DNA of 64,000 nt from Bryobacterales bacterium (GTDB lineage: Bacteria > Acidobacteriota > Terriglobia > Bryobacterales > Bryobacteraceae), in contig PMTR01000074.1 of NCBI GenBank assembly GCA_003167255.1, positions 97,266 to 161,265 of the forward strand, given 5' to 3'. How positions within the stretch are numbered: position 1 is the first letter of the stretch; every line of letters starts with the position of its first letter. A program made the position numbers and the translations under genes. This document shows, piece after piece, positions 23,946 to 35,430 of this stretch. The notes below the pieces were generated by a model. It worked only from the letters and a program-made list of their open reading frames with translations. It made no database searches and was not told where the DNA came from.

Positions 23946-26762
23946 CTAGCGGTACGCGAAGATCATCGCGTAGAGGATCAGCCCGATCATCACCATGCCC
24001 AGGCCCAGCGCGGTGAAGCCCAGGCGGCGCCAGAAGCGCTGCGAACGCTCGGGCGGGGCGGGCATCAGGTTCTCTTCCAACTGGCCGGCGTCCACCATCT
24101 CCTGGTACTCCCGCGGACGGTCGCGCTTGAATTCTTCGAGCGGCATGCCGGTGGTGAAAATCACCGTGTCGATGGGGAACTTTTCGGGACGAAAGTGCGT
24201 GTTGAAGAAGTGGATCACGAAGATGAAACTGACCGCCAGCAGGGCTTCGTCGCTGTGGATGGTGGTTGCGACGTTCACCATCCAGCCGGGGAAGATGCGG
24301 GTGAAAGCTTCGGGGAACCAGAGCATCAGACCGGTGCCGCCGATGATCGCCACGCCCCAAAAGACGGCGAAGTAATCGAATTTTTCCCAGTAGGTCCAGC
24401 GACCGTATTGCGGGCGCTCGCCGCGGCCCAGGAACCATTTCATGGAGCCGATGAATTCGCGCCAGTCGCGGCCGTTGAGCAACATGCTTTCGGAACTGGT
24501 GATGTACTTCAGCCAGGATTTGCCGCTCTTGCGGTGCTGCTTCAACAGGTCGTACACGTGCAGGCCGAAATAGGTGAACGTCAAGGCGGCGCAGAAGCGG
24601 TGGATATACCCGGCGGATTCGAAGCCTCCCAGCAGCCGCGCGATCACCTTGGCCCAGGGGGCGTAGGAGAACTTCAGGGTCATGCCGGTGAGGGCGAGAC
24701 CGAGGAAGCTCGAGATCACCATCAGGTGCAGGTTGCGGTGGAGCGGGCGGAAGCGCCGTACGTAAACGCCGTTTTCGTCGTGGCCGCTCCTGGCTTCCTT
24801 GCGGTATTGGAGCGAGCGCGGGAGCCAGGCCAGCGTGTGGGTGCCGGAGATTACCAGCGTGCCGACGAGCAGCGTGGTCATGCCCCAGAAGGTGTAGAAG
24901 AGGAACGGATACTTTTGCGGGTCGTGATGGGTGGCGTGAGTGAGGTATCCGGCGAACTGGCGGTGCGAGCCCATGTGGCACTTGCCGCAGGTATTGACAA
25001 TGTTGGCGCGGCTGAGACGGGAACGCGGGTCGGTGACGGGCAGGATGTCGTGCGAGCCGTGACAGTCGTAGCACTTGGCGGTCTGCAGGCCGCCCAGATT
25101 GGAAACCTTGCCGTGAAAGGTTTCGAAATAGGCCTCGGTAATCTGCCGATGGCAACGGCCGCACTGGTTCATGATGTTCAGCCGGAAGTCGCTGCTGTCG
25201 GTGCGTTCGATGCTGTGGGCCGAGTGGCAGTCGGCGCACACCGGGAGCGGTTTTCCCGACTTGGTCACGGTGGGGCTATGAACGCTGGCGGTGAACTGTT
25301 CGTAGATGCCGCGGTGGCATTGCGCGCACGTGGCGGCGATGTTGGCGCGGTAGACGCTGGAGCGCGGATCGCTGGCGGGTAGCTCACGGTGCGCGGTGTG
25401 GCAGGCGGTGCAGGCCGCCGTGACCGTCAGGCCGGACTGCAGCAGGCCCTTGCCGTGGATGCTCTCGGTGTAGTTCTCGATGATGTTGGTCTGCTTGCCG
25501 GTGTACCGCAGGGCGGCTTTGTGGCCGGTCTGGTGGCACTGGGCGCAGAGCCTCGGGACGTTGCGCGAGAACGTCGGCGAAGCCGAGTCGTTCTTGGCCA
25601 GGGTGTGGTGGGGGCTGTGGCAATCCTGGCAGGTGGGAGCGTCGTGGCTGCCTTGGGCCGCCAGCGTGCCGTGGGTACTCTCGTGATAGTCGTTGACCTG
25701 GGTCGGGTGGCAGATCGAACAATCGACCTTCGCCGGTATGGTATCGCAAGGCCGCGTGTGCGACGGCGTGCCGCCGGTATGGCATTGCACGCAAGCCACG
25801 GGCGTGTCGGGGTGACTGGGCGGGTTGTGGTGGATGGAGGTGTCCGTCTCGGCTTTGTCGACGAACAGCGAAACGGTCTTCGAGCCGCGAGTCACCTTGA
25901 GGTTGGGATTGGCGTGGCAGCGCTGGCAGTCTTGGTCCGCCATGCCCTCGGTGTAGGAGAACTTCCGCACTTTGTGCGGTTCGTGACAATCCACGCAGGC
26001 GGGAATCATGTTCGGCGCGGATTCCCAGAGCTGGCCGTTGATCACCTTACGGTGCACGTCCTCAATCCGGCCGTGGCACTTGCGGCAGGTCTCGGCGATT
26101 TTGTCTTTGGCGATGGACGAGCGCGGGTCGGTGTGCGGCAGCACGAAGTGCGCGGTGTGGCAACTGGTGCAGACGGCGGCGACGGTGAGGCCCTTGGTGA
26201 ATAGCGCCTGGCCATGGATACTGTCGGTGTAGTTTCCCAGGATGTTGGTCTGCGGGATGTCGTGGGTCTTGCTGACGTCGGTGTCTTTGCTGTGGCAACT
26301 ACCGCAGAGGCCGGGAATCTCCATGGTGGAGGTGCGAGCCTTGGGGTTCGACGGGAGCAGGATGTTGTGCGTCCCGTGGCAGGTTTTGCAGCCGGGCGCA
26401 GAGTTGTCGCCGCGCGCCGAAGCCTTCCCGTGGAGGCTGGCGGCGTATTGGGTCTGCTCGTCGGGGTGGCACGCGCCGCAGTCCACTTTGGCCAGCTTTT
26501 CGGGATGGGGGAATTCTTTCTTGGCGAGCTCGGCGTGGCAGGCGGCGCATTCCTGGTCCGCGTGTGGGGAGGCTTTGAGCGCGGCGGCGTCGAATGGCGG
26601 AGGGACGCCGGGCTGCCGTTTGCCCACACGGACCCCGGTTTCATGACAGCCGAGGCAATCGTCGGAGCCGGGGAGCGGCTTGGACTGCTGCGCCGGGAGG
26701 GCTGCTGCCAGAAGTCCGGCTGCTACCAGGAGGCGCCGCAGGATAGCTACTCGGTGAATCAT
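23946..26762 (-). CDS. 19-haem cytochrome c / cytochrome b fusion protein
   Basis: About 938 residues from ATG 26762. After the signal peptide (RRLLVAAGLLAAALPAQ) come 19 CxxCH haem sites in about 600 residues, from CLGCH to CGKCH. Haems 3-7 and 11-15 lie in two homologous five-haem blocks (compare NYTDSIHGQALFTKGLTVAA with NYTESIHGKGLLQSGLTVTA). The last 300 residues hold six membrane helices with paired histidines (YIHRFCAALTFTYFGLHVYD, SDEALLAVSFIFVIHFF), a di-haem cytochrome b of the FdnI/HydC type. The layout resembles Geobacter CbcL, which oxidises menaquinol for extracellular electron transfer, but with twice the haems. It has its own promoter (26787-26815). Confidence 0.93.
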   Translation of the reverse strand: MIHRVAILRRLLVAAGLLAAALPAQQSKPLPGSDDCLGCHETGVRVGKRQPGVPPPFDAAALKASPHADQECAACHAELAKKEFPHPEKLAKVDCGACHPDEQTQYAASLHGKASARGDNSAPGCKTCHGTHNILLPSNPKARTSTMEIPGLCGSCHSKDTDVSKTHDIPQTNILGNYTDSIHGQALFTKGLTVAAVCTSCHTAHFVLPHTDPRSSIAKDKIAETCRKCHGRIEDVHRKVINGQLWESAPNMIPACVDCHEPHKVRKFSYTEGMADQDCQRCHANPNLKVTRGSKTVSLFVDKAETDTSIHHNPPSHPDTPVACVQCHTGGTPSHTRPCDTIPAKVDCSICHPTQVNDYHESTHGTLAAQGSHDAPTCQDCHSPHHTLAKNDSASPTFSRNVPRLCAQCHQTGHKAALRYTGKQTNIIENYTESIHGKGLLQSGLTVTAACTACHTAHRELPASDPRSSVYRANIAATCAQCHRGIYEQFTASVHSPTVTKSGKPLPVCADCHSAHSIERTDSSDFRLNIMNQCGRCHRQITEAYFETFHGKVSNLGGLQTAKCYDCHGSHDILPVTDPRSRLSRANIVNTCGKCHMGSHRQFAGYLTHATHHDPQKYPFLFYTFWGMTTLLVGTLVISGTHTLAWLPRSLQYRKEARSGHDENGVYVRRFRPLHRNLHLMVISSFLGLALTGMTLKFSYAPWAKVIARLLGGFESAGYIHRFCAALTFTYFGLHVYDLLKQHRKSGKSWLKYITSSESMLLNGRDWREFIGSMKWFLGRGERPQYGRWTYWEKFDYFAVFWGVAIIGGTGLMLWFPEAFTRIFPGWMVNVATTIHSDEALLAVSFIFVIHFFNTHFRPEKFPIDTVIFTTGMPLEEFKRDRPREYQEMVDAGQLEENLMPAPPERSQRFWRRLGFTALGLGMVMIGLILYAMIFAYR

Positions 26763-26786
26763 AACAGAAATTAAGACCCTATTCTC

Positions 26787-26815
26787 TGTATAACATCTGT
26801 AGGGTTTTTCGTCAA
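26787..26815 (-). promoter_or_regulatory. Candidate sigma-70 promoter of the 19-haem cytochrome gene
   Basis: On the minus strand TTGACG (26815-26810), a 17-base spacer, and TATACA (26792-26787). The predicted transcript start is about 20 bases before ATG 26762. It makes the 19-haem gene independently transcribable from the upstream cytochrome operon. Confidence 0.6.
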
Positions 26816-26897
26816 TGCGCGGAATCCTATTGTTGGAAATTTCAGCGGGGCAGGTCTGAACCAGCCCAAGTTCGCGTGAAAATGTCAAAACCGCCGC

Positions 26898-26928: not shown

Positions 26929-28380
26929 CTACTTTTGGGCGGACTTGCTTTCTACAATACCGAGATCTGTGAGCACCTTCGGGTTGGTTTCATCCATGGC
27001 CAGGATGTTGTGGCAGGCGCTGCAGTCCTGCGTGATGGCGTCTCCGGTCTTGGGGGCGTGCGAGCCGTCGTGGCAACGGAAACAGCCGGGGTAATCGGTG
27101 TGACCGATATTAACGGGGTAGGTGCCCCAGTTGACTTTCATTTCGGGGAAGATGTTGCGGTCATAGATGGCAACGAGTTCTTTGGCGGACGATGCGATTT
27201 CCGGCTGCCGGCCGCTCCAAACGGCAGGGTAGGTCTGCCGATAAAACTGGGCGAACGTGGCGGGGATCTTCTGCTCGGCTTCTACGCGCGACAGGTAGGG
27301 CGCTTTGAGGACTTCGACGGACTTCTTCTTGACGAAGGGGAGCGAAGTGGAAATCAAGTTGTCGTGCATGGCTTTATCCACGGCGCGGTCGGGGAGGTCG
27401 TAGCTGTGAGCGGGGCGGTTGTGGCAATCCATGCAGTCCATGGTGCGGGGGGTCCCTGGGGGCTCGGCCTTGGAGTCGGAAGTGGCGTAGACAGTGCTCT
27501 TGCCGTTGTCTTCGTATTTCACCCAGGGGATGGTCTGGCGGGCTTCGTCGGAATGGTAGCTGATCACGACTCCAGGGCCGAGGTGGGTGCCGTGGATGCC
27601 GATGCCGTTGTTCCCCCCGCCAATCCTCATCAGCAGGACCGTCTTGGTGACGCTGTTGGTTTCGTCTTCGGCGTATTTGGAAATGACCTTCACGCGGTCT
27701 TCGCCGTACTTCTGCGGCCAGTGGCATTGCTCGCAGGTTTCGCGGGCGGGACGCAGGTTGGTGACCGGGGTGGGGATGGGCTCTGGATAGGTGTGGAACG
27801 TGACGGCGAAGACCTGGCCCACGCCGGAGAGTTTGCTTTTCACGAACCAGCCGGCGCCGGGACCGATGTGGCACTTCACGCACTCCACGTTGGAGTGCGG
27901 AGAATTCACATAGGCGGTGAATTCGGGCTGCATGACGGTGTGGCAGGTCTGGCCGCAGAAGGTCACGGAATCCATGTAATTGACCGCGCCGTAGGCGAAC
28001 TGGCTGGCGATCGCGATGTTGAGCATGGTGGTGGCAGTGACGAAGTAGACCAGCTTGCGCAGTTCGGGGTTGTGCCAGTTGAGCGGCGGGAAGCCGGGCG
28101 GATAAATGCCTTTGCGGCCCTCGCGTCTGCGCTTCAGCCAGATGCCCAGCGGAACCATGACCAGGCCCGTGAAGAAAGGCGCGGGCAGGCCTAGAAATAC
28201 CAGGATGCCAATGTAGGGGCTGGCGGCTTCGCCCTTCAGGGTGGTGGGCAGCAAGAAGAGCCAGAAGACGACGGTGGTGGTCACGATGACCACGCCGGCG
28301 AGGCTGATCCAGTTGTTTGACAGGTAGACGAACGGGGACAACCAGCCCCGGTGGCTTATATCGGATGGATTTGGTGTCAT
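26929..28380 (-). CDS. NapC/NirT-type membrane multihaem cytochrome c
   Basis: 483 residues. Three hydrophobic helices lie in the first 150 residues, then six haem sites: one CX3CH (FCGQTCHTVM), then CVKCH, CEQCH, CMDCH, CFRCH and CSACH. The first site with the following Val-Met resembles the NapC/NrfH first haem (CxxCHxM) but has an extra residue between the cysteines. NapC/NirT proteins draw electrons from quinol and pass them to periplasmic partners. The size and extra haems recall Geobacter ImcH. It lies 10 bases after the 9-haem fusion gene, so it is co-transcribed. Confidence 0.9.
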   Translation of the reverse strand: MTPNPSDISHRGWLSPFVYLSNNWISLAGVVIVTTTVVFWLFLLPTTLKGEAASPYIGILVFLGLPAPFFTGLVMVPLGIWLKRRREGRKGIYPPGFPPLNWHNPELRKLVYFVTATTMLNIAIASQFAYGAVNYMDSVTFCGQTCHTVMQPEFTAYVNSPHSNVECVKCHIGPGAGWFVKSKLSGVGQVFAVTFHTYPEPIPTPVTNLRPARETCEQCHWPQKYGEDRVKVISKYAEDETNSVTKTVLLMRIGGGNNGIGIHGTHLGPGVVISYHSDEARQTIPWVKYEDNGKSTVYATSDSKAEPPGTPRTMDCMDCHNRPAHSYDLPDRAVDKAMHDNLISTSLPFVKKKSVEVLKAPYLSRVEAEQKIPATFAQFYRQTYPAVWSGRQPEIASSAKELVAIYDRNIFPEMKVNWGTYPVNIGHTDYPGCFRCHDGSHAPKTGDAITQDCSACHNILAMDETNPKVLTDLGIVESKSAQK

Positions 28381-28390
28381 GCTGTGGGTG

Positions 28391-30070
28391 TCAGTCTCCC
28401 GCGGTCTTCACCGGCTCGCGCTCTGGTGAGTGCTCCTTCTTTTTTACACTAAGTCCAGTCAGAAAAGCTGTGTTGAGCGGGTAGACATCGGGATCGAAGA
28501 TGACGGAGTAGAAGTGCCATACCACGATTGCCAGGGTGGCGAGGATGGCCTCATACAGATGAACCGACGTAGCAACGTCGAGCCAGCTCTTGGGGAGGAA
28601 TCTCATGACCAGGGTGTTGGCCCAAAGGAAGGCCCCGGAAGCAATCATGACGACCGCACCCCAGACCACGGCCCAGTATTCGGCCTTCTCGATGTAACTG
28701 TGCGGCGACCGGGGCGGCGGGTCGGAACCCAAGCCGAGGTTGTAGGCGAAGCCTGCCAGCGCCTCGCGCGGGTCATCCATTTTGGGCAGCATCTCTTTCC
28801 AGTGATGGCGCAGCTTGCGGTTGGCAATCAGCGAGACCAGGTGCGTGACGGCGACCGCCGTGAACGCGGCGGCGGCGATGCGATGGATCAGGCTGCGCAC
28901 GGCGTACCTGCCTTCCAACATCAGCAGGGGGCGCGCCCACCAGGTGTCGGGATATTTCAGGGCGAAGCCGGTCCAGATCAGAGTGAGGAACGAGAGCGCC
29001 ATGACGGCGTGCTGGACGCGTTCGAAGGGCAACATGCGAAGCTCGCCGTGTCCGGCTGCGGCAATCCGGCCGGGTTGTGCAATGCGGCGTTGAAAACGCA
29101 GTTTGACCAGCTTGCGGATCCAATCGCCGCCCTGGTGAAGCATCATGAGGCCGATGGTGACGGGGATCAGCAGCAGGTAGAACTGACGCACCCAGCGCAG
29201 GGCCACGGTTTCGGAGTTGTCGGTGAGGTGCACCTGGCTGATGGCGAAACGGGTACCGGCGCCGGCGTGGCACTGCCCGCAAGTTTTGGGCAGGTTCTTC
29301 GGATTAATGGTCGACTTGGGATCGGATGACGGCAGGATGTTGTGCACACCGTGGCAGCTCGAGCAGTTGGCCACGGTTTGGGAGCCGGCCTTGCCGGCGA
29401 GACCGTGGTAGGAAGCGTCAAAGCTGACCACTCGGTCGGATGGCAGCCCGAAGGAGCTGGTCAGCCGCACGTTTCCGTGGCAACTACCGCAGGTATCGCG
29501 GATGTGCGCGGCGTTGACCATGGAAGAGGTGTTGCCGGGCTTGAGGATCTTGTGCTCGCCGTGGCAATCGTTGCAAATGGGCGCCTGGGTGACACCCCGG
29601 GCGAGGGCCTGGCCATGCACGCTGGTGCGGAACTGATCGACGACTTCGCTGTGGCACATACCGCAGGTGTCGGGGACGGCGGTGCGAAATGCCTGCGACT
29701 GCGGGTGCAGCAGCTCATGGGCGCTGCCGTGGCACAGAGCGCAATCGGGGGCGCCTTCATTGCCATGCTTGCGGGCTTGGCCGTGAACGCCGAGGGCGTA
29801 GTCGCCGGCCTGATCCTGGTGACAGGTGACGCACTGCGGTTTGGGGATGTTGGCGGGGTGAGGATACTGGTCGTGGGATTCGTGGCAGGTGTCGCAGGGC
29901 AACCCGGCGTGGGCGCTTTTTTCGAGCTTCTGGGCCTGGTCGTGGCACGAAGAGCAGTCCGCACCGGGCTGCTCCACCGCATGGGCATTGAGGCCGGTCA
30001 GGCTGAGGACGAGGCCGAATAGGGCAGAACCGAGCGCTTGGCTGATGGTTCGAAGGGCCCGGTTCTTCAT
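28391..30070 (-). CDS. 9-haem cytochrome c / cytochrome b fusion (CbcL-like)
   Basis: 559 residues. Signal peptide, then nine CxxCH sites (CSSCH, CDTCH, CVTCH, CALCH, CGMCH, CNDCH, CGSCH, CSSCH, CGQCH), then a membrane cytochrome b domain with helices around FYLLLIPVTIGLMMLHQGG, VMALSFLTLIWTGFALKYP and WAVVWGAVVMIASGAFLW, and paired His in HRIAAAAFTAVAVTHLV and HLYEAILATLAIVVWHF. Nine c haems plus a di-haem b domain is the CbcL architecture of Geobacter, a menaquinol oxidase for low-potential extracellular acceptors. Function here is inferred. GGAG about 10 bases upstream supports ATG 30070. Confidence 0.93.
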   Translation of the reverse strand: MKNRALRTISQALGSALFGLVLSLTGLNAHAVEQPGADCSSCHDQAQKLEKSAHAGLPCDTCHESHDQYPHPANIPKPQCVTCHQDQAGDYALGVHGQARKHGNEGAPDCALCHGSAHELLHPQSQAFRTAVPDTCGMCHSEVVDQFRTSVHGQALARGVTQAPICNDCHGEHKILKPGNTSSMVNAAHIRDTCGSCHGNVRLTSSFGLPSDRVVSFDASYHGLAGKAGSQTVANCSSCHGVHNILPSSDPKSTINPKNLPKTCGQCHAGAGTRFAISQVHLTDNSETVALRWVRQFYLLLIPVTIGLMMLHQGGDWIRKLVKLRFQRRIAQPGRIAAAGHGELRMLPFERVQHAVMALSFLTLIWTGFALKYPDTWWARPLLMLEGRYAVRSLIHRIAAAAFTAVAVTHLVSLIANRKLRHHWKEMLPKMDDPREALAGFAYNLGLGSDPPPRSPHSYIEKAEYWAVVWGAVVMIASGAFLWANTLVMRFLPKSWLDVATSVHLYEAILATLAIVVWHFYSVIFDPDVYPLNTAFLTGLSVKKKEHSPEREPVKTAGD

Positions 30071-30075
30071 GACAA

Positions 30076-30354
30076 TTACACTCCTGATTGGGATGTCTCA
30101 ATCCAGGCCTGGTACGCGTAGGCAGCGCCCAGAATGACACCGTAAACCACGGCGATCACGGTGAGAATCTTGCCCCACTTGTCGATCTGATCGAGCTGGT
30201 GGGCAATCACGGGTTGATTGGCGCCGCCGCCATCGAGCACGTGCAGGGTGTCGTCTTCATGGCTCGCAATGGCCTTGCGCCGCACCAGCAGCACAATGAC
30301 GGCAAGGGCCAGAACGATCCAGGGATACAGGAACGGGCGCAAATTGATATTCAT
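30076..30354 (-). CDS. Small two-helix membrane protein of the cytochrome operon
   Basis: 92 residues with two membrane helices (YPWIVLALAVIVLLVRRK and ILTVIAVVYGVILGAAYAY) joined by a charged loop of about 40 residues containing HEDDTLHVLDGGG. GGAGATGAGC upstream supports the start. It lies 5 bases before the 9-haem fusion gene, whose ribosome-binding site overlaps its end. The placement suggests an assembly or anchoring subunit of the cytochrome b complex. No known family recognised. Confidence 0.75.
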   Translation of the reverse strand: MNINLRPFLYPWIVLALAVIVLLVRRKAIASHEDDTLHVLDGGGANQPVIAHQLDQIDKWGKILTVIAVVYGVILGAAYAYQAWIETSQSGV

Positions 30355-30386: not shown

Positions 30387-30803
30387 TCAGATCACAGTTG
30401 AATTTGCGGCCTTGGGCGAGCGGCGGGGGGGGGTGATTCCGCTACCCGCATCACCCAAGCCGTGCTTATCGAAAGTCTTCCCGGTGGCTTCCTCGATGGC
30501 ATCCACAACCAAAAGCAAATAAGCATCCAGGGCGCACTGGACCTGCTGGCGGGTTTCGCAGGAGCCGTCGCCAGCCTGCCCGGCGCAAACCGAGCAGATG
30601 TTGCGGCGGATAGCTTCGATGTACTGCTGGATATCGTCGCTCTCGACAGACTGGATGGCTTGGGCTACTTGGGGAAACAGACGGAACAGGGCGCAACTGG
30701 AGGGTTGTTCCAAGCCGCACTGACTCTCTACGGTACGTTCGGTACAAACGCTGCAGATCCGGTTGCGGACCACAACCTCGAGCTCCGCTAATGAGCGATC
30801 CAT
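30387..30803 (-). CDS. Cysteine-rich protein with two identical C4 motifs
   Basis: About 138 residues, start ATG 30803 with AAGGAG 8 bases upstream. Two internal repeats each contain CSVC-x8-C-x7-C: Cys 17, 20, 29, 37 and Cys 70, 73, 82, 90, offset by 53 residues. The repeats start RNRICSVC and RRNICSVC, and each is followed by a hydrophobic helix region (PQVAQAIQSVES, LLLVVDAIEEATG). No signal peptide is visible, so it is probably cytoplasmic. Eight cysteines in two equal sets suggest two metal or iron-sulphur sites. I do not recognise the family. Embedded in the cytochrome operon. Confidence 0.75.
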   Translation of the reverse strand: MDRSLAELEVVVRNRICSVCTERTVESQCGLEQPSSCALFRLFPQVAQAIQSVESDDIQQYIEAIRRNICSVCAGQAGDGSCETRQQVQCALDAYLLLVVDAIEEATGKTFDKHGLGDAGSGITPPRRSPKAANSTVI

Positions 30804-30870
30804 ATCTGAATCTCCTTTCGCCTGAACAAAGAGTAATGCACGCCGAAGTCCAAGCGGGCGGCAAACCAAA

Positions 30871-31317
30871 CTATGGGGTTTTGCAACGTTTTGGGCCGCA
30901 ATGCCGATGAAGTGGGGCTATTGACGCAGACTCGGAGCTGATTGAATGGGTTATTTCGCCGGCGACCTCCGAACTGTGGGGTTTTGCAATACGCAAGGCA
31001 GCAGCCATGATGGCCAGCAGAACGGTACTGAGGGGATCTTGCTCCGAGACAACGGAAACAATCCCAGCTTCCCAAGCCTGAGCAAGGAATTGAGGATCCT
31101 GCAGATCGTGGCGGGTGATCAGGACAACCCGCTCAGGGTTGGAGAGGGGGAGGGGCAGCCGTCTGAATGACTGTTCGTCCAGGACCATCACACAATGCTG
31201 CGAGAGGTCGGGGCGATCGACGGGCTGGATGTGCCAGGCGCAACTACGGGTCAGGGCGTCCCGAACCGTTGCGGCGTACTGGCCGTCAGCAATCGAAAGC
31301 TGAACCGTTTGCATCAT
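30871..31317 (-). CDS. Receiver-like protein of the cytochrome operon
   Basis: About 148 residues from ATG 31317 (GGAG 6 bases upstream). The segment RVVLITRHDLQDPQFLAQAW plus EAGIVSVVSEQDPLSTVLLAI has the beta-alpha rhythm of a response-regulator receiver domain. The usual phospho-acceptor Asp context (DVVLLDxxMP) is not evident, so it may be a pseudo-receiver or another Rossmann-like fold. No DNA-binding domain is attached; the C-terminus (about 40 residues) is low in structure. Perhaps a regulatory partner for the divergent sigma-54 activator. Function uncertain. Confidence 0.6.
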   Translation of the reverse strand: MMQTVQLSIADGQYAATVRDALTRSCAWHIQPVDRPDLSQHCVMVLDEQSFRRLPLPLSNPERVVLITRHDLQDPQFLAQAWEAGIVSVVSEQDPLSTVLLAIMAAALRIAKPHSSEVAGEITHSISSESASIAPLHRHCGPKRCKTP

Positions 31318-31350: not shown

Positions 31351-31584
31351 TTACTTCTTCTCGACGTAGCCGTCCAGCGACTTATTCTTCCCGTAATACT
31401 TACCTGCGTCGGTCAAGTTCTTATTCATGGCGTCCTTATCGTTAGGGACGTTCTTCTCATGGCAGTAATTGCAGGCTTTCTTAGTACTCTTCATGTATTC
31501 CGGTTTGCCATACGAGGCCGTGGAGCAAACCAGGAAACCGCCCAGCAGGATGACAGCGGGCAAAGCAATTTTCCAATGGGACAT
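31351..31584 (-). CDS. Small monohaem cytochrome c
   Basis: About 77 residues from ATG 31584 with GGAGGC just upstream. A signal or anchor helix (IALPAVILLGGFLVCSTAS) is followed by one haem site ACNYCHEKN and a lysine-rich region ending LDGYVEKK. A small soluble or tethered electron carrier. It is the first gene of the minus-strand cytochrome operon and is divergent from the sigma-54 activator, with a 171-base shared regulatory region. Confidence 0.85.
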   Translation of the reverse strand: MSHWKIALPAVILLGGFLVCSTASYGKPEYMKSTKKACNYCHEKNVPNDKDAMNKNLTDAGKYYGKNKSLDGYVEKK

Positions 31585-31755
31585 GATGCCTCCGCCCGAA
31601 AGGGTAGCAATTGCATCACCATGCATGTATCTTCAAACACAGCAGCAGGTTTGCAGGAATATCCACCACCCGGATGGGGGCATTCCCCCCGAAATAGCGG
31701 CATGATGGGCCAATTCCCCCAAACCGCTTGATATAATCCAAATACGTACCTGTGA
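31585..31755. promoter_or_regulatory. Divergent regulatory region between cytochrome operon and sigma-54 activator
   Basis: 171 bases without a gene. It contains GGGGGCATTCCCCCC (31676-31690) and CCAATTCCCCC. A sigma-54 promoter was looked for; the nearest element (TGGTGG..CCTGCA on the minus strand) is off spacing by a base. The exact promoters remain unresolved. Confidence 0.45.
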
Positions 31756-33099
31756 ATGTCTAAGCTCATCCCAGGCTGGCAGAAGACCAGCGTGCTCGAA
31801 TCGGTGTTTGACCAGCTTTCGGACGCGCTCGTCCTTTATGATCCGGAGTTCCGGATTACCGGTGTCAACCGGTCGGCGGAGAGGCTGTTTGGCGTTTCCT
31901 CGGAGGAAATGCTGGGAAAGCACTGCCAGGATATCTTTAAGTGCGAGCTCTGCGAACCCGGTTGCGGCGTCCTGGTGGGGCTGAACCAGGCGCCCGCCGC
32001 GCCTCATTCCACGGTGCGGTTGCACACCGCAAACGGCATGGAACGGCTGGTGGTGATGCGCACTACGCAGATGTTCGACGATGCCGGCAACCTCAGCGGA
32101 GTGGTAGCCACCATCAAAGACATCACCGACGAGGCGGCGCCTCAGAAGCGGGAAGTGATCGCCGAATCGCCGTCCATGCGGGAGGTGCTGAATTTTGTGC
32201 GCCGGGTGGCGGCCAGCGAAGCCACTACAATTCTGCTGGAAGGCGAAAACGGGACCGGCAAGGACCTGATCGCCAAGACGCTGCATTACCAAAGCGTGCG
32301 CCAGGCCGAGCCGTTTATCGCCATCAACTGCGCGGCCATTCCCGATTCGCTGCTGGAGAGCGAACTGTTCGGGTATGAAAAGGGCGCGTTCACGGACGCG
32401 CGGTCGCAAAAACGGGGCATTTTCGAACTGGCCGACAAGGGCACGCTGTTCCTGGACGAGATCGGCGAGATCCCACTGATGTTGCAGGCCAAGCTGCTGC
32501 GGGTGCTGGAAGAGCAGACCTTCCGGCGGCTGGGCGGCCTGAAAGACATCAAACTGGATCTGCGGGTGGTAGCGGCCACCAACAAGAATCTGCGGGAAGC
32601 CGTGAAAGAAGGGGCGTTCCGGCAGGATCTGTATTTCCGGCTCAACGTGATCCAGATTCTCATCCCGGCGCTGCGGGAGCGCACCGAGGATATCGTGCCG
32701 CTCACGAAGTTTTTCGTCGAGCACTACAACCGCAAGTTCAAGCGGAACATCGAAGGGTTGAATGAGGCGGCGGCCAGGCTGTTGATGAGCCACGACTGGC
32801 CGGGCAACGTGCGCGAGTTGCGCAACGCCATCGAGCGGGCCATGATCCTGGAGGAGTCGTCGCTGATCACGCCGGCCAGCCTGCCGATTGCGATTTCGCG
32901 TCCCGAATCCGGCACGGTTTTGCCGGTTCCGGCCAGCACGGACCTTCCCACGGAGGGGCTTTCGCTCGAAGACAACGAACGCAACCTGCTGGCGCGGGCG
33001 CTCGAAAAAACCAACGGCAACCAGACGCAGGCGGCGCGATTGCTGCGGATCACGCGGGATACGCTTCGCTACAAGATGAAGAAATTCAACTTGCGGTAG
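31756..33099 (+). CDS. Sigma-54 dependent activator with cysteine-bearing PAS domain
   Basis: 447 residues: PAS (about 12-125), AAA+ (about 135-365) and Fis-type helix-turn-helix (about 405-447). Walker A is GENGTGKD (163-170) and Walker B LFLDE (231-235). The sigma-54 contact loop reads GAFTDA (210-215) rather than GAFTGA. The PAS domain carries four clustered cysteines (57, 63, 66, 70; KHCQDIFKCELCEPGCG), which suggests redox or iron-sulphur sensing. It is divergent from the cytochrome operon and is its likely activator. Direct evidence of target sites is lacking. Confidence 0.93.
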   Translation: MSKLIPGWQKTSVLESVFDQLSDALVLYDPEFRITGVNRSAERLFGVSSEEMLGKHCQDIFKCELCEPGCGVLVGLNQAPAAPHSTVRLHTANGMERLVVMRTTQMFDDAGNLSGVVATIKDITDEAAPQKREVIAESPSMREVLNFVRRVAASEATTILLEGENGTGKDLIAKTLHYQSVRQAEPFIAINCAAIPDSLLESELFGYEKGAFTDARSQKRGIFELADKGTLFLDEIGEIPLMLQAKLLRVLEEQTFRRLGGLKDIKLDLRVVAATNKNLREAVKEGAFRQDLYFRLNVIQILIPALRERTEDIVPLTKFFVEHYNRKFKRNIEGLNEAAARLLMSHDWPGNVRELRNAIERAMILEESSLITPASLPIAISRPESGTVLPVPASTDLPTEGLSLEDNERNLLARALEKTNGNQTQAARLLRITRDTLRYKMKKFNLR

Positions 33100-34463: not shown

Positions 34464-34871
34464 TCAATCGCCGAACCGGGACTCGAGCCGGGCGGCCACC
34501 GCATCCAGAAGCTGTCCGGCCGCGTGCCGGGCCTCTTCCGCTTCTGTTCGTTCGGGAGAATACCTGGCGCCGGGATAACGGAAACGCCAGGCGTATTGCG
34601 AGAGCTTCCCTATGCCGGCCAATTGAGCGGTGAGGTCTTCGGCGAGCGGCACGCACGCCTGTTTCAGTTCGTCCAGGTCGTGCGTCTTCTTGAAGGGAAC
34701 CTGGTGCCAAGTGAGAACGGCTTTCATCGCCTTTTCAGCGCATTGCTGGGCATGAAACAGCGCCTCCGCCGGCAACGCGACCGCAATCAGGGCGTCGCAG
34801 GCCGCTAAGTCCGAGCGCGCCCGTTCAAGCCACTCCCGCGTTTCCACTATCAGAGTCTCACGCGGACTCAT
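34464..34871 (-). CDS. HEPN domain protein
   Basis: 135 residues, all helical, with the HEPN pattern REWLERARSDLAACDALIAV, ALFHAQQCAEKAMKAVLTWH and KTHDLDELKQAC plus YAWRFRYPGARYSPE. It is the form without an obvious RX4-6H RNase motif. It overlaps the nucleotidyltransferase gene by 14 bases, making a HEPN/MNT toxin-antitoxin-type pair. Confidence 0.88.
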   Translation of the reverse strand: MSPRETLIVETREWLERARSDLAACDALIAVALPAEALFHAQQCAEKAMKAVLTWHQVPFKKTHDLDELKQACVPLAEDLTAQLAGIGKLSQYAWRFRYPGARYSPERTEAEEARHAAGQLLDAVAARLESRFGD

Positions 34872-35193
34872 ACAGCACCCTCCCCTCGCGGACCACCGTC
34901 GCCGGCAGCGATGCCCTTACATAGGCCGCCCGGCCTTCGAAGTCGGTCTGCCGCCACGGTATCACATCCTTCGCCATGCCGAATCCCGTGAGACGCGAAT
35001 ACACTTCGCCGCTCCGCATCGTCGATTCCGGAGTGTCGTCAGGCACCACCACCAGGAAATCCAGATCGCTGTCCGGCCCCGCGTCGTCGCGCGCCTCCGA
35101 GCCGAAGAGGTAGATTCGGACCGGCCGGTAGAACTCTACCAGCCGCCGCGTCATCTCCTCGATCACTTCCTGTTTCGTGAGTTGAGTTTGCAT
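34858..35193 (-). CDS. MNT-type minimal nucleotidyltransferase
   Basis: 111 residues from ATG 35193 with GGAG just upstream. The polymerase-beta motif LFGSEARDDAGPDSDLDFLV gives GS-x10-DxD. In HEPN/MNT pairs this subunit AMPylates or neutralises the HEPN partner. The upstream DNA is the tail of a broken methylase gene. Confidence 0.9.
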   Translation of the reverse strand: MQTQLTKQEVIEEMTRRLVEFYRPVRIYLFGSEARDDAGPDSDLDFLVVVPDDTPESTMRSGEVYSRLTGFGMAKDVIPWRQTDFEGRAAYVRASLPATVVREGRVLYESA

Positions 35194-35221
35194 TGCTCCA
35201 CCTATCGCCGATCCTCCGAGG

Positions 35222-35430
35222 TTACCGCAGTTCAAATGCTTCCGACGCCATGGATGGCCACGCCACCACGAGGCTGTTGAGTAGCCTGCCTCTTCCGCCC
35301 AACCCTTGCGCTCGCAGAGTGTGCAGAGCCGGTAGGCGAGGTCGAGGGCGATCTCGGCCAGCCCACCGATCTTCGCCTTCAGATTTGCCGTTTCCTTCTC
35401 GCCCTTCTGGTCGAGGCGCCTGATCGGGTG
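35222..35430 (-). pseudogene. Frameshifted 3' end of a DUF1156-type DNA methylase gene
   Basis: One frame encodes HPIRRLDQKGEKETANLKAK and then ALDLAYRLCTLCERKGWAEE. Near 35280 the reading must shift by two bases to continue as NSLVVAWPSMASEAFELR stop. Both pieces match the C-terminus of DUF1156 adenine-specific methylases found in anti-phage islands. The rest of the gene is absent. Confidence 0.7.

Follow-up and report, generated by a model that had tools for sequence, protein, structure and literature searches.

C8, an undescribed family of duplicated four-cysteine proteins in Acidobacteriota and its possible role as a redox-sensing adaptor beside multihaem cytochromes

This analysis indicated that the window (the whole 64 kb stretch of DNA that was analysed) encodes, within a multihaem cytochrome operon, a small protein with two tandem four-cysteine modules, here called C8, which by sequence comparison represents a real and undescribed family. 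We tentatively propose, with a probability of about 0.4, that C8 serves in the cytoplasm as an accessory adaptor which senses redox state, probably through two Fe-S (or Zn) sites, and acts on a regulator. Acidobacteriota are abundant soil bacteria, and this proposal, if true, would describe a specific regulatory circuit for their multihaem respiratory chains, made up of a sigma-54 activator with a four-cysteine PAS, its promoter and, as an optional part, a redox adaptor with two sites. Our literature searches found no description of a C8 protein in titles and abstracts, and no paper on the control of multihaem respiration in Acidobacteriota.

The C8 protein and its family

The C8 reading frame lies on the minus strand, from an ATG at 30803 to a stop at 30387, and encodes 138 aa. 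The initial annotation had reported two copies of CSVC-x8-C-x7-C spaced by 53 residues, and translation bears this out, the copies covering residues 17-37 and 70-90. These are the only two occurrences in a six-frame translation of the whole window, and none of 200,000 shuffles of the C8 protein contained two copies. The dN/dS ratio, determined against six relatives, was approximately 0.04-0.13, which points to a real gene under strong purifying selection. The two modules aligned with each other in profile comparison (hhalign probability 98.1, E 1e-13; reversed control 0.9), which argues for a true internal tandem duplication. The absence of a signal peptide had also been claimed; C8 has no hydrophobic segment at all (best 19-residue Kyte-Doolittle mean, 1.22), which is consistent with a soluble cytoplasmic protein. 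An AF2 model of C8 plus 11 near relatives contained four helices only, with a helix-CxxC-loop-helix arrangement predicted at low confidence in each module (pLDDT 59), and a Foldseek search with this weak model yielded no structural relative. We therefore make no claim as to the fold.

Sequence and profile searches of Pfam, NCBIfam and PDB returned no family match. The earlier statement that no described family has this pattern thus holds in these three databases, in which the profile match to a characterised family that had been named beforehand as refuting it did not appear. The best match in PHROGs, at E 0.0028 over 30 residues, was to a family without known function, and no relatives were found in the plasmids and viral contigs searched. 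Of 257 genomes of the order, 42 carry a relative, as do six of 38 from a second class of the phylum. When 396 genomes were sampled evenly across the phylum, seven matched, namely the window's own genome and the same six. A scan of genome contigs for near relatives found C8 in Acidobacteriota only.

The eight cysteines are kept in most relatives and rank among the most conserved positions of the family alignment. Those of module 1 occur in every relative, and module 2 lacks one or more ligands in a few (loci L041 and L045). Genome G634 carries two divergent copies of different subtypes (L079:163-525 and 584-1426), the first of which resembles the C8 proteins linked to PAS-LuxR regulators (see below). 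At two loci (L046:1870-2511 and L047:8883-9647), C8 has a fused extension at its N-terminus, roughly 85-130 residues long.

Some known four-cysteine proteins invite comparison. Bacterial 2[4Fe-4S] ferredoxins carry two copies of CxxCxxCxxxCP and, like C8, owe their two four-cysteine motifs to internal duplication. However, C8 has the different motif CxxC-x8-C-x7-C and a predicted all-helical fold, and it gave no match to a Fer4 family of Pfam, so that it falls outside this group. WhiB-like proteins are also small, cytoplasmic and regulatory (in C8, by proposal), with four conserved cysteines including a CxxC; they hold a single cluster, have a CxxC that is usually central and are restricted to actinobacteria (PMC4601167). 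C8, by contrast, has two modules, each with CxxC as its first pair, and shows neither a detectable sequence relation to them nor any match in Pfam or NCBIfam, and we do not assign it to this family.

The operon and its divergent regulator

The initial annotation had placed C8 in a multihaem cytochrome operon, and the genes around it confirm this. The features of the locus are as follows.

23946..26888, minus strand: multihaem cytochrome (19 CXXCH motifs) in fusion with a b561-type membrane domain, found only in some operons
26929..28380, minus strand: NapC/NirT-type membrane cytochrome c with five CXXCH motifs
28391..30070, minus strand: nine-haem c-type cytochrome fused to a cytochrome b561-type membrane domain (b/c cytochrome)
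30076..30354, minus strand: small membrane protein for which two helices are predicted, immediately downstream of C8 and a conserved neighbour
30387..30803, minus strand: C8, 138 aa, soluble, with two tandem four-cysteine modules (from translation, family alignment, duplication and dN/dS)
30837..30852, minus strand: second -24/-12-like element, TGGACTTCGGCGTGCA, between the pseudo-receiver gene and C8
30871..31311, minus strand: pseudo-receiver, 146 aa from the ATG at 31311 (longest ORF to 31344)
31351..31584, minus strand: small secreted monohaem c-type cytochrome, 77 aa from the ATG that follows the promoter
31606..31621, minus strand: candidate sigma-54 -24/-12 promoter, TGGTGATGCAATTGCT, upstream of the operon
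31756..33099, plus strand: divergent sigma-54 activator with PAS, AAA+ and Fis HTH domains (Pfam)

Most Bryobacteraceae loci carrying C8 share the gene order divergent activator, monohaem cytochrome, pseudo-receiver, C8, two-helix membrane protein, b/c cytochrome and NapC, with or without the 19-haem b/c cytochrome. At loci L008 and L091, the homologue of the latter is inverted and lies between the b/c and NapC genes. The membrane cytochromes resemble, by description only, the inner-membrane quinol oxidases CbcL, CbcBA and ImcH of Geobacter, CbcL combining multihaem c-type with b-type parts and ImcH being of the NapC/NirT type; the parts of that account consulted name no C8 counterpart for these oxidases (PMC12307469).

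The divergent neighbour is a sigma-54 enhancer-binding protein, with a Sigma54_activat domain (PF00158, 233.9 bits) and a Fis-type HTH (PF02954, 58.1 bits). Its PAS domain carries C-x5-C-x2-C-x3-C (CQDIFKCELCEPGC) in all 24 aligned C8-linked loci, of which at least 22 are distinct, and this activator is the only one of 22 readable sigma-54-activator frames of the genome to do so. Such a domain (hereafter C4-PAS), a PAS with four invariant cysteines, would be an NreB-like Fe-S PAS sensor if these cysteines bound a cluster. The PAS domain of NreB, in the NreABC system of Staphylococcus, holds a [4Fe-4S] cluster and controls nitrate respiration; NreB is a cytoplasmic four-cysteine PAS protein regulating anaerobic respiration, as the activator next to C8 would be, but it is a histidine kinase, whereas the activator joins its PAS to a sigma-54 AAA+ domain and has its cysteines in the C-x5-C-x2-C-x3-C spacing (PMC4601167). 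Unlike NreB, C8 itself has no PAS fold in its model.

Promoters that depend on sigma-54 are marked by a GG-N10-GC element at -24/-12, and the sequence upstream of the operon has this form. TGG-N7-ATTGC was found on the operon strand, upstream of the operon, at 24 of 24 activator-linked loci. A single match is not rare, 0.82 being expected by chance in the whole window, so that the case for a promoter lies in the conservation of its place among loci that have diverged. In its longest form, reaching 31626, the monohaem cytochrome ORF overlaps this element, and the start is likely to be the ATG at 31584. The second element, TGGACTTCGGCGTGCA, is conserved in close loci with C8 and in six loci lacking it, and is absent from deeper-branching loci; both elements may act as promoters. 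The interval from the pseudo-receiver gene to C8 was also considered as a structured RNA; this was set aside, since Rfam gave no match there and the conserved block is better explained by the -24/-12 element.

The pseudo-receiver, which has no match in Pfam, is predicted to adopt a CheY-like fold: its AF2 model (mean pLDDT 77) gave the receivers of DctD, NtrC1 and AmiR as best Foldseek matches (E ~1e-4). The Asp at the end of the third strand varies among pseudo-receivers, being N in L034 and L093. In close relatives, the protein ends in a conserved basic tail, for instance SKRCKTQ.

Optional presence and other contexts of C8

C8 is an optional member of the operon, as far as the sampled genomes indicate. 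Within the order, the C4-PAS activator was detected (E below 1e-25) in 103 of 257 genomes, against the 42 with C8. Among 20 fetched loci lacking C8, 17 kept the pseudo-receiver, the small membrane protein and the b/c cytochrome in order, and a profile search of the fetched loci gave no clear C8 remnant. On the tree of the b/c cytochrome, the presence of C8 changed at least eight times, at least three of these changes being forced by well-supported branches. In the draft genome G641 (locus L205), a stretch that matches the C8 3' end persists between the neighbouring genes, so that C8 was here lost rather than never gained. Absence from related clusters had been named beforehand as refuting the initial proposal; C8 is missing from many such operons and present in others. 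Being optional and repeatedly lost, it would be an accessory and not a core component; that many intact operons lack it speaks against an essential role in maturation or electron transfer. The four PAS cysteines were kept in all 19 activators from C8-less loci whose PAS segment was displayed. C8 is therefore not required by the C4-PAS activator, and we rejected an obligatory role in loading or serving it.

Distant C8 genes occur in other contexts, for which a simple script called the genes and the identity of several neighbours was judged by eye. A PAS-LuxR regulator converges on C8 in L039 and lies close to it in L040; its PAS has four cysteines at the place matching C4-PAS, and three of the four align. 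A cNMP-binding protein overlaps or abuts C8 in L075-L078, and Rrf2 regulators lie near it in L039, L043 and L075. Molybdoenzymes of the Nar/Nxr type are found near distant C8 genes among loci L039, L043, L044 and L075 (in part by eye). Cytochrome oxidase genes accompany C8 in L045, where the second module is degenerate, and MgtC-like genes (by eye) in L046 and L047; no obvious regulator adjoins C8 in these three loci. Many of the enzymes associated with C8 are respiratory (multihaem cytochromes, Nar/Nxr-type molybdoenzymes, cytochrome oxidase). Directly upstream of C8 in L039 (7825-11379) lies a gene that, by eye, is pyruvate:ferredoxin oxidoreductase-like.

Possible role of C8 and the alternatives

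A redox-sensing accessory is favoured because the factor common to these contexts is a cytoplasmic regulator of respiration beside the duplicated four-cysteine protein. Sequence evidence shows the family itself, its duplication and conserved cysteines, the operon, the promoter sequence, the four-cysteine PAS and the optional presence of C8; the cofactor, the partner, the direction of effect and the activity of both promoters are what we infer. Each helix-CxxC-loop-Cys-Cys-helix module would most likely hold one metal centre, with Fe-S favoured over zinc by analogy with NreB and with the WhiB proteins, small four-cysteine Fe-S regulators of which several bind [4Fe-4S] (PMC4601167). C8 would be made together with the cytochromes around it, from the sigma-54 promoter heading the operon and perhaps also from another directly before its own gene. 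Its target would be the regulatory layer, and most probably either the divergent sigma-54 activator, with its own four-cysteine PAS, or the adjoining pseudo-receiver, and cytochrome synthesis would in this way track the redox or oxygen/NO state of the cell. Of the roles first suggested for C8, two metal or Fe-S sites are plausible, given that no positions are more conserved than the cysteines and that the modules are duplicated. A cytoplasmic redox sensor fits the recurrent neighbours (C4-PAS sigma-54 activator, PAS-LuxR, Rrf2 and cNMP-binding proteins), which suggest such a role. The adaptor proposal is weakened by the persistence of the C4-PAS cysteines without C8, by those distant C8 genes that have no obvious regulator beside them, and by the weak AF2 model with no structural relative.

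In a more extended form, which we rate as rather doubtful, C8 would found a new class of duplicated four-cysteine sensor modules serving varied transcription regulators (sigma-54 C4-PAS activators, PAS-LuxR, cNMP-binding/Rrf2 systems) and thereby setting the expression of respiratory chains in Acidobacteriota, multihaem cytochrome operons included. If this were true, one adaptor could open several regulons, the family recurring beside nitrate/nitrite-type molybdoenzymes.

The best surviving alternative, although unlikely in our view, is that C8 is a zinc-stabilised helical scaffold, with structural zinc in both modules and a function as a protein-protein adaptor free of redox chemistry. Sets of four cysteines suit zinc as readily as Fe-S, and the weak profile matches of C8 among curated cellular families were mostly to zinc-finger models. 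All of these matches (best 0.019 and 0.0076) are far below the cut-off, and C8 does not qualify as a zinc finger (zf-HC5HC2H and others), its best score being 15.6 bits against a Pfam gathering cut-off of 29.1. Moreover, the recurrent redox and respiratory context speaks against a scaffold, and the ligand losses in module 2 would be unusual in a purely structural site.

It is less probable still that C8 is a small ferredoxin-like carrier passing electrons from cytoplasmic donors to the membrane cytochromes or molybdoenzymes. It has two four-cysteine sites, and its neighbours include molybdoenzymes and the pyruvate:ferredoxin oxidoreductase-like gene of L039; however, the motif spacing is not that of ferredoxins, the neighbouring multihaem domains are expected in the periplasm, and the operon is retained without C8 in the 17 loci described above. 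We hold a maturation or assembly factor, inserting haem, Fe-S or cytochrome b into the adjoining cytochrome complex, to be just as improbable. Such a function, one of those originally proposed, would suit the position of C8 directly before the small membrane protein and the b/c cytochrome gene, but it is disfavoured by the many genomes that encode the same complex without C8, by the 17 conserved operons, by the loss from an intact operon in L205 and by the association of distant C8 genes with unrelated enzymes. A metal-free thiol-disulfide switch, in which the cysteines would form disulfides on oxidation, is the least probable reading of all, since the CxxC pair of each module and the cytoplasmic regulator context agree with it but four conserved cysteines per module at fixed x8 and x7 gaps would better suit a metal site.

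Beyond the preferred reading of C8 as a redox-sensing adaptor, the genes flanking the activator deserve mention. Just past it lies a DUF1828 protein (PF08861; 33462-34226, minus strand). Two further genes near the activator (34464-34871 and 34858-35235, minus strand) look by eye like a HEPN/nucleotidyltransferase (MNT) toxin-antitoxin pair, and homologues of both also adjoin the activator in L084 (8113-8863).
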